From Bacteroidota bacterium (GTDB taxonomy: Bacteria > Bacteroidota > Bacteroidia > UKL13-3): 64,000 nucleotides of DNA. Shown here one piece after another: positions 45,118 through 47,823 of the stretch. Location: positions 1-64,000 of the forward strand of contig CANGVA010000001.1 of the NCBI GenBank assembly GCA_947457395.1, given 5' to 3'. Within the stretch, counting starts at the first letter, position 1. Each line of letters starts with the position of its first letter. The notes under the pieces are model-generated. The model saw only the letters and a program-made list of their open reading frames with translations, was not told the DNA's origin and did not search any database. Position numbers and translations under genes: made by a program.

Positions 45118-45939
45118 ATGCGTATTGTACTCTGTTTTGCGTGGCCTGCAGAAGCCAAACCTTGGCTTGAAAGGGTAAACTGCAAATTGCGGTTTCAGGT
45201 TAAACATGTGCGCTATTATCAGGGAGCTGATTATGATATACTCATAGCAGGCATGGGCCCTTATCATTTACCGGCAGCCATTGGCTGGATTCAGGGTCTG
45301 ATACCGGAAGATAAAATCTGGTGGAATATTGGAATTGCCGGAGGCAAAGAAAATCAACTACATCAATGGTTTTATATTTCATCTGTAACCAATGAAACAG
45401 GTGCTGATTTTTTTTATCCCGAAATTAGCATCTTGCCTAATATGCCACTTGGTATGCTGCAAACGTCAGCACAGCCTGTTTCTAAAACCGTTCTTGCTGC
45501 TGCTGATAACTTAGCAGATATGGAGGGCTTTGCTTTTTGCATGGCTGCGCAATTGTTTGCATCCACCAGCCGGATACAGTTGCTAAAGTGGGTAAGTGAT
45601 AACGGGGTAGAGAACTTTGATAAACACAGTTGGCAAAAAAAATATGCAGATTCAATTGATGAGCCTTTACAATTAATACAGGCGCATCATGAAAAAATAG
45701 CGTCTATGGTTGTTGCAACAAAGCCTGATATTGATGTTTATTTACAACCGTTGCTGGATGTATTGAGGCCAACATTTAGTCAGCAGGTAATGATTAAAGA
45801 TGCGCTTTATTTTGCCAGGCAATATCATGGTAATGACTACATACAAAAAAAGATTGCTGCCATTCCGCAGGACCTGAAACAGAAAAAGGAAAAAAATGTC
45901 TGGTTGCTTCAATTACTAAATGAATTAAGGAATGTTTAG
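45118..45939 (+). CDS. Nucleoside-phosphorylase-like protein
   Basis: A 273-residue protein resembling the purine nucleoside phosphorylase/MTAN superfamily: LCFAWPAEAKPW near the N-terminus, an ILIAGMGPYHLPAAIG glycine-rich strand-turn, WWNIGIAGGKENQLHQ, and DMEGFAFCMAAQLF, which corresponds to the ME(A/G) ribose-binding region. The C-terminal about 100 residues (HHEKIASMVV onward) are helical and not recognised. Its last 8 nt overlap the radical SAM gene, so the two are translated together. Possible roles are nucleosidase/phosphorylase action or binding of a damaged nucleoside. Confidence 0.75.
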   Translation: MRIVLCFAWPAEAKPWLERVNCKLRFQVKHVRYYQGADYDILIAGMGPYHLPAAIGWIQGLIPEDKIWWNIGIAGGKENQLHQWFYISSVTNETGADFFYPEISILPNMPLGMLQTSAQPVSKTVLAAADNLADMEGFAFCMAAQLFASTSRIQLLKWVSDNGVENFDKHSWQKKYADSIDEPLQLIQAHHEKIASMVVATKPDIDVYLQPLLDVLRPTFSQQVMIKDALYFARQYHGNDYIQKKIAAIPQDLKQKKEKNVWLLQLLNELRNV

Positions 45940-46921
45940 CGGATTGGTTTATATAGAGGAGGATATACTAACGCATCCCGGTACGCTGCAAATATTAAGC
46001 AAACTCGCTAATCCTCAGGTGGTGCCCATTAAGCATTATAAGGATGTATTTAACCAGGCAGGCAGCGATTGGCGTTTGCAAAAAGCTGCTCAAAAAATTA
46101 TTCTGGCATCGCGCAGAAGCCATTTTTATTATCAAGGATCAGATATTACTCCTGCTTTTGGTTTCAAACACTTTTACTACAACACCCTTGCATTAAATTG
46201 TGTTTATGATTGTGATTATTGCTACCTGCAGGGCATGTTCTCTTCTGCACACCTGGTGCTGTTTGTAAACAATGATGATTTTATGGAACAAACAAAAGTG
46301 TTGCTGCAGCAGTTACAGGAGCCCGTATATCTGGCACTTTCCTATGATACAGATTTGCTTGCCATTGAGCATTGGTATCCATACTGCAAGGAGTGGATTG
46401 CATTTGCATCTGAGCAAACCAACCTTACCATTGAGATCAGAACAAAAAGTATCAATATAAAGGCGTTGCAACCTATTAAACCTGCAGACAATATTATACT
46501 GGCATGGACACTCTCTCCTCAGGAGGTAATAAATTTGCATGAGCCCAAAACACCTTCTGCACAAAGCAGGATTGCAGCTATTAAAAAGGCGGTTGAACAA
46601 GGCTGGCGCGTGCGGATTTGTTTTGACCCCATTCTGCATATACCAAATGCTGAGATGGCTTACATGAAATTAGTTGATGAGCTGGCTTCACAAATTCAGT
46701 TAACATCAATCGATTCTTTTAGTCTGGGCGTTTTCAGAATGAATCAAGATTTTTTAAAGCGGATGCAGCACCAGCGTAAAGACAGTGCATTACTTTTTCA
46801 TGTTTTTGAAAAGACAGATGATACGGTTTCCTATGCAAAGGATATAAAGAAAAAGTTAATTGATGTGGTTACCAATCGCATTACCCATCATGAAAAACGT
46901 GCGCATATTGTCATACTGTGA
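45932..46921 (+). CDS. Spore photoproduct lyase-like radical SAM protein
   Basis: A 329-residue radical SAM protein. The 4Fe-4S motif CxxxCxxC is Cys 90, Cys 94 and Cys 97 (LNCVYDCDYCYLQ), with TIM-barrel-like segments VYLALSYDTDLLAIEHW and RIRICFDP-like strands. The YCYLQ context is typical of spore photoproduct lyase (SPL), which reverses thymine photoproducts. True SPL has a hydrogen-donor Cys about 43 residues after the last cluster Cys; here that area (about 135-145) has none, the next Cys being 152. Members in non-sporeformers have unknown substrates. It overlaps the phosphorylase-like gene by 8 nt. Confidence 0.85.
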   Translation: MFSGLVYIEEDILTHPGTLQILSKLANPQVVPIKHYKDVFNQAGSDWRLQKAAQKIILASRRSHFYYQGSDITPAFGFKHFYYNTLALNCVYDCDYCYLQGMFSSAHLVLFVNNDDFMEQTKVLLQQLQEPVYLALSYDTDLLAIEHWYPYCKEWIAFASEQTNLTIEIRTKSINIKALQPIKPADNIILAWTLSPQEVINLHEPKTPSAQSRIAAIKKAVEQGWRVRICFDPILHIPNAEMAYMKLVDELASQIQLTSIDSFSLGVFRMNQDFLKRMQHQRKDSALLFHVFEKTDDTVSYAKDIKKKLIDVVTNRITHHEKRAHIVIL

Positions 46922-46944: not shown

Positions 46945-47823
46945 TTATAATGGTGTGTAGTTTTTATATTCAAACAGGTGCTTACCTGTTAGCTGCTCAA
47001 TTATTTTTAATACATATTCTTTTAGAGGCAACTTTTTTTTGCTTTGATCCCACTCAAAGTGCCAGTTCATCCTTGCCAGCCTTTCTTTCATTACAAGTGG
47101 ATGTGTTCCTGTAAATTTTTTTAAGGAATCGATGTTGGCATAATCAAACGCATCGGCTTGCGCCACATTATTTTTAACCCACTCATCATCATGCCACATT
47201 TTATGAAAGCTTTTTTGCTTTTCCTGCTGTGATCTCGGATCTTTCACCCATCCATAATGATAAACTTTTGCCGGAATGGCCTTAACCTGTAGCTTTCTGC
47301 CATTTATTCTAAATCCTTGCGCATCGCGGTAGCTGCTGATGTTTTTATTGTTGCGCACCACACGTATTTCATTTCGGTACCATTTGCGAGAGTCTCCAAC
47401 ATAGTCATAACTGCCGTAAAAATGTTCGTATGCAAATAGCAAACCTTCCACACGTGCATCATGGAGGTATTGCGCACAAGCATGTAAGATTGCATCATGG
47501 TATTGCTCATGTATTACCTCATCGCCTTGCAAATAAAAGCACCAATTTGCTTTGGGGCTTATAGCAGCAAATGCCTTATTGGTTTCAACTGCCAGTACTT
47601 GGCCTCCTTCCCGCAAGGTATCATCCCAGATGGTTTCAATAATTTTTATTTTGGGCGATTGGATAGATCTGATTAATCCTAAAGTGTCGTCATCACTTTT
47701 GCCAACGGCTACAATATACTCGTCTACAACAGGCAAAATACTTTTTATAGATTCCACAATGGGGTAATCATATTTGATAGCATTACGCACAATGGTAAAC
47801 CCGCTGATAAATGGCTTGGACAT
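46945..47823 (-). CDS. Glycosyltransferase family 2-type protein
   Basis: A 292-residue GT-A-like transferase: ISGFTIVRNAIKYDYPIVES at the N-terminus, DEYIVAVGKSDDDT, and a YLQGDEVIHEQYH segment where the metal-binding acidic motif is expected. A VYHYGWVKDPRSQQEKQK block near residue 210 recurs in related bacterial transferases. It is convergent with the radical SAM gene and divergent from feoA. Donor and acceptor are not known. Confidence 0.82.
   Translation of the reverse strand: MSKPFISGFTIVRNAIKYDYPIVESIKSILPVVDEYIVAVGKSDDDTLGLIRSIQSPKIKIIETIWDDTLREGGQVLAVETNKAFAAISPKANWCFYLQGDEVIHEQYHDAILHACAQYLHDARVEGLLFAYEHFYGSYDYVGDSRKWYRNEIRVVRNNKNISSYRDAQGFRINGRKLQVKAIPAKVYHYGWVKDPRSQQEKQKSFHKMWHDDEWVKNNVAQADAFDYANIDSLKKFTGTHPLVMKERLARMNWHFEWDQSKKKLPLKEYVLKIIEQLTGKHLFEYKNYTPL

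Follow-up and report, generated by a model that had tools for sequence, protein, structure and literature searches.

A conserved gene pair of a nucleosidase-like protein and a radical SAM enzyme of the spore photoproduct lyase fold, candidate core of a three-gene module

Two overlapping genes in the window, a 64,000-nt stretch of the Bacteroidota bacterium contig CANGVA010000001.1, encode a nucleosidase-like protein (P1) and a radical SAM enzyme with the fold of spore photoproduct lyase, SPL (P2). We propose, giving the proposal about an even chance, that P2 is a radical SAM enzyme served by a nucleosidase of its own, P1, and that the two form the core of a three-gene module, the third member being a short-chain dehydrogenase (SDR). 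The data point to a conserved metabolic module of many anaerobes, apparently undescribed so far: literature searches on the pair, on its parts and on nearby terms, which covered open-access papers and few subscription journals, turned up no account of it. The first-pass annotation of the window had likewise supposed an undescribed step. The novelty lies in the combination; P1 and P2 themselves belong to known superfamilies.

The pair is located between purD upstream and an opposite-strand gene downstream (46945–47823). The two ORFs and their 8-nt overlap are as noted earlier. The products had also been described as fused in translation; at the window locus there is only this overlap, and fusions in a single ORF occur elsewhere. 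The features discussed below are as follows.

45118–45939, plus strand: P1 ORF, ATG start, 273 aa
About aa 1–195 of P1, plus strand: MTAN-type nucleosidase domain
45151–45153, plus strand: P1 Glu12, matching the Glu12 that activates water in MTAN, invariant (32/32) in the alignment of relatives
45412–45423, plus strand: P1 FYPE loop (aa 99–102), mostly YPD among relatives and still present in partners whose nucleosidase site is lost
45517–45525, plus strand: P1 Asp134-Met135-Glu136, counterpart of the ribose-binding motif Met173-Glu174 of MTAN
45595–45600, plus strand: P1 Ser160-Asp161, counterpart of MTAN Ser196-Asp197 (adenine N7 contact)
45715–45936, plus strand: P1 C-terminal helical domain (about aa 200–273), the proposed P2-docking part, also found in partners without the nucleosidase core
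45932–45939, plus strand: 8-nt overlap of P1 and P2, ATGTTTAG, holding the P2 start and the P1 stop
45932–46921, plus strand: P2 ORF, SPL-fold radical SAM enzyme, ATG start, 329 aa
46199–46222, plus strand: P2 CX3CX2C motif for the [4Fe-4S] cluster and SAM (C90, C94, C97; with Y96, Y98)
46343–46345, plus strand: P2 Tyr138, aligned to the SPL H-donor Cys140/141
46619–46621, plus strand: P2 Cys230, a cysteine typical of this clade and without an SPL counterpart

P2 relatives were collected by scanning GTDB genomes with a P2 alignment, the best 80 of 450 relatives being used, and by added sampling of Bacteroidota, Bacillota, one Bacillota family, one Campylobacterota class and Fusobacteriota. The resulting core set comprises 159 P2 loci found by P2 alone, with some loci repeating one genome. 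P1 is adjacent or fused to P2 in nearly all of the best 80 of 450 relatives, and a P1-type gene is adjacent, overlapping or fused at 147 of the 159 core loci, in Bacteroidota, Bacillota, Campylobacterota and Fusobacteriota. Chance pairing is excluded, since the P1–P2 order recurs at so many of these loci, and the neighborhood survey thus finds the conserved phosphorylase partner that the first-pass annotation had proposed to look for; the pair is not unique to this genome, nor does P1 fall outside the phosphorylase superfamily.

Eight loci (L046, L058, L061, L066, L154, L158, L162 and L185) carry P1 and P2 as a single ORF, and as these fusions are spread over three or more distinct regions of the P2 tree, the fusion arose at least three times. 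The overlap geometry of the window is common to seven of the 123 de-duplicated loci, among them L002, L020, L024, L029 and L032. For the same 123 loci the P1 and P2 distance matrices are strongly correlated (Mantel r = 0.83, permutation maximum 0.15). Out of 299 sampled Bacillota genomes, P2 is present in 18: fourteen with P1, one with a degenerate partner and three without. A search for viral carriage yielded no P1 relatives on viral contigs; locus L005 (MT835514) is labeled bacteriophage, yet ordinary bacterial genes surround its P2, and it is probably a misassigned gut bacterial contig.

P1 is modeled as an MTA/SAH nucleosidase (MTAN) fold with all catalytic residues and an added helical C-terminal domain. 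Its AlphaFold2 model has pLDDT 92.5, and the top structural matches are MTANs with bound adenine or MTA, residues 1–193 matching CT263 with MTA/adenine at Z 22.1 and bacterial MTANs at Z about 21. A profile of 32 P1 relatives retrieves many MTA/SAH nucleosidases from PDB (best E 3e-9). By sequence the window P1 is very divergent, with no useful Pfam match and none to PF01048, while several relatives exceed the 25.1-bit cut-off of that family; NCBIfam gives weak nucleosidase matches (PRK05634, 34.3 bits at a cut-off of 129). The active site comparison with MTAN finds equivalents of Glu12, Met-Glu and Ser-Asp, and E12, E136 and D161 are invariant among P1 relatives (alignment, n = 32) and lost in some wider relatives. 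Hence, "phosphorylase-like", as P1 had been called, is correct at the superfamily level, and "nucleosidase-like" is more exact.

P1 shares with MTAN (Pfs/MtnN, PF01048; e.g., CT263 of Chlamydia) the fold, these residues and the loop region facing the neighboring subunit; in MTANs the region of the YPD loop reaches the active site of the neighboring subunit. It differs from MTAN, beyond the divergence and the extra C-terminal domain, by the operon or fusion tie to P2 and by repeated decay to a non-catalytic partner.

The P2 model (pLDDT 93.7) has the SPL fold over 318 of 329 residues at Z 34 and 22% identity, with the C-terminal hairpin region covered as well; other radical SAM structures follow at no more than Z 15, and MqnE at Z 13. 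P2 scores above the cut-off of the Pfam SPL family PF20903 (61.2 bits against 27) and well under that of the NCBIfam SPL equivalog TIGR04070 (74.7 bits against 400). In the PDB set, which may lack QueL, the P2 profile matched only SPL chains. The cluster motif is conserved throughout the core: C94 and C97 in 159/159, C90 in 158 with one gap, Y96 in 159, and Y98 mostly Y. SPL (SplB; PF20903, TIGR04070; PDB 4FHC–4FHG) thus shares with P2 the full-length fold, the CX3CX2C motif, Tyr96 and Tyr98, and the TK motif.

What is not shared is the catalytic cysteine. SPL recycles SAM via a cysteine/tyrosine relay, and to our knowledge it is the only enzyme of this radical SAM branch that has been studied well. 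Its H-donor cysteine is C141 in Bs and C140 in Gt, and mutating it abolishes SAM regeneration, with one 5'-deoxyadenosine formed per repair (PMC3742179). The corresponding position in the P2 core is Y in 155 sequences, F in four and C in none (n = 159), Tyr138 of the window P2 being aligned to Cys140/141 in both single-sequence and profile alignments. Position 230, on the other hand, is C in 144 of the 159, S in eight, A in six and V in one; E168, R170 and R269 are conserved charged residues. In the tree P2 forms one group (support 84/84), true SPLs being on another branch (97/99), and three genomes of spore-former lineages hold a true SPL (229–455 bits) in addition to P2 (52–74 bits).

Judging from its residues, P2 is not an SPL: the H-donor cysteine is absent, and P2 coexists with true SPL. 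Along with these features, the low identity and the nucleosidase partner set it apart from SPL. The first-pass annotation was therefore right about the fold and family of P2 and wrong in so far as it implied an SPL orthologue; its suggestion of a repair enzyme borrowed from a spore former is rejected, as P2 forms a separate clade, occurs together with a true SPL in spore formers' genomes and has no such cysteine.

Our preferred mechanism is the following. P2 would bind SAM on its [4Fe-4S] cluster and generate the 5'-deoxyadenosyl radical, which would attack a polar substrate other than a thymine dimer. SAM would be consumed, with one 5'-deoxyadenosine released per turnover, because the cysteine relay that regenerates SAM in SPL is absent from P2. 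P1, docked on P2 via its C-terminal domain and YPD loop, as their conservation suggests, would hydrolyze 5'-deoxyadenosine to adenine and 5-deoxyribose and so relieve product inhibition, and SDR would oxidize or reduce the product or the substrate of P2. Inhibition of radical SAM enzymes by 5'-deoxyadenosine has been described (PMC8102628). The nucleosidase activity of P1 would be dispensable where a general MTAN takes over; removal of 5'-deoxyadenosine by a coupled nucleosidase, which can be spared in the presence of a general MTAN, would account for why P1 and P2 go together, why they fuse and why P1 decays.

In evolutionary terms, an SPL-fold enzyme may have lost the SAM-recycling cysteine and gained a dedicated, coupled 5'-deoxyadenosine nucleosidase, with SDR as the third enzyme and the nucleosidase having decayed to a non-catalytic scaffold in several lineages, and P2 would catalyze a new reaction of the SPL family; we hold this fuller scenario tentatively, at slightly less than even probability. 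Among the points against the preferred mechanism, Cys230 of P2 might be an alternative H donor allowing for SAM recycling, and a dedicated nucleosidase is unusual alongside a general MTAN, as in most Bacillota sampled.

The loss and decay of P1 bear directly on its role. Catalytic residues are absent from the P1-type partners at L005/L129, L151, L152, L154 and L192/L193, and Asp161 is replaced by Gly in the homologues at L043, L069 and L072. All of the former retain the YPD loop, and those at L005/L129, L151, L152 and L192/L193, the helical C-terminal domain. These site-less homologues look like pseudoenzymes still coupled to P2, and the persistence of the YPD loop and the C-terminal domain after loss of the nucleosidase site suggests that both may contact P2. 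A general MTAN, assigned by motif and length, is present in all twelve tested genomes with a degenerate or missing P1, compared to 11 of 17 with an intact one (one-sided Fisher p = 0.026, a weak correlation in a test that ignores kinship).

In the window genome no other MTAN was recognized among PF01048 proteins, the sequences, judged by eye, being PNP-, AMP-nucleosidase- and uridine-phosphorylase-like. The sister species G001 has only a P1 remnant of 43 codons, 91% identical, beside purD (L003 1501–1629, minus strand; L137), and P2 was not found in the stretch of G001 that was read; the loss of the pair is apparently recent. A main role of P1 as the housekeeping MTAN is unlikely: P1 and P2 disappeared together from G001, whose PF01048 matches include no other of MTAN size.

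SDR adjoins the pair or P2 at 98 loci, and among the best 80 of 450 relatives, at 52 of 80; Bacteroidota loci with SDR include L002, L020, L024, L029 and L032. It is also kept beside P2 where P1 is missing, in Campylobacterota L171 and L173–L175. The window genome carries an SDR orthologue away from P1–P2, on contig C13 (L232 4509–5195; 54% identity to the SDR of G015), and in G344 an SDR relative (34% identity) is located about 6 kb from the pair. Several SDRs of the module have a common C-terminal motif, (I/V)xPQxFxLxRK. SDR can also exist independently, since G001 retains it without P1–P2, a point against the preferred reading. In the Campylobacterota loci L172, L174 and L175 the P2 matches contain in-frame stops, possibly an ongoing decay of P2 with P1 already gone.

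An alternative is sequential biosynthesis, in which P2 would add 5'-deoxyadenosyl to its substrate as MqnE does, P1 would remove adenine from the adduct as MqnB or MTAN does, and SDR would reduce the exposed sugar. The MTAN type of P1 with its adenine-binding residues, a weak resemblance of P1 relatives to futalosine hydrolase at the profile level and the third step supplied by SDR agree with this scheme, and an MTAN substituting for the P1 step would explain the loss of P1 in MTAN genomes. MqnE and MqnB of the futalosine menaquinone pathway likewise combine a radical SAM enzyme with an MTAN-type hydrolase. However, P2 is closest to SPL and not to MqnE, the window P1 scores 14.4 bits with the futalosine hydrolase model TIGR03664 (cut-off 124.7), and the futalosine pathway itself is ruled out by the absence of PF02621 (MqnA/MqnD) from the window genome. 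On balance we find this scheme unlikely.

Slightly less probable still is salvage, close to the initial suggestion that both proteins serve the repair or salvage of a modified nucleoside, with P1 freeing a modified base and P2 cleaving its side chain. Such a pair of a nucleosidase and a radical lyase is known in queuine salvage (PMC11477304; PMC11130926), where QueK and QueL of Clostridioides difficile are also encoded in one operon, and the charged residues E168, R170 and R269 of P2 suggest a polar substrate. Yet QueK, of the inosine-uridine nucleoside hydrolase type, comes from a different family (IPR023186; PMC11130926), a Pfam search found no match of this type in the window P1, the operon partners differ, and the P2 profile matches only SPL among the solved structures of a set that may lack QueL, so that despite the same logic the pair was rejected as QueK/QueL. 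The neighborhoods of the pair show no conserved queuosine gene, base transporter or preQ1 riboswitch, and in 22 loci no conserved riboswitch of any kind was observed.

Catalysis by P1 is lost in several lineages with P2, and usually SDR, kept, which would fit the removal of 5'-deoxyadenosine better than a step on a modified nucleoside, leaving the latter as one option among several. We consider it very improbable that P2 is a DNA photoproduct lyase of vegetative cells helped by P1 in base or nucleoside processing: the full-length SPL fold with the C-terminal hairpin region is what such an enzyme would have, but the H-donor cysteine is missing in 159/159, spore formers have a true SPL besides P2, and no DNA-repair neighbor is conserved.

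If 5'-deoxyadenosine removal is indeed the role of P1, a radical SAM by-product would here have an enzyme dedicated to its clean-up, and P2, a widespread sister family of SPL with the fold but not the cysteine, would show how the modes in which SAM serves as cofactor and as substrate interconvert. The pair would also mark a new step in the metabolism of gut and thermophilic anaerobes, where P2 is liable to be annotated as "spore photoproduct lyase".

A second SPL-like radical SAM subfamily, without P1 or SDR, was observed in Fusobacteriota (L195–L205, at about 1430–2520 in each). Both the SPL cysteine and the P2 motif are missing from this subfamily, and the members inspected adjoin a DNA polymerase III delta-like gene.
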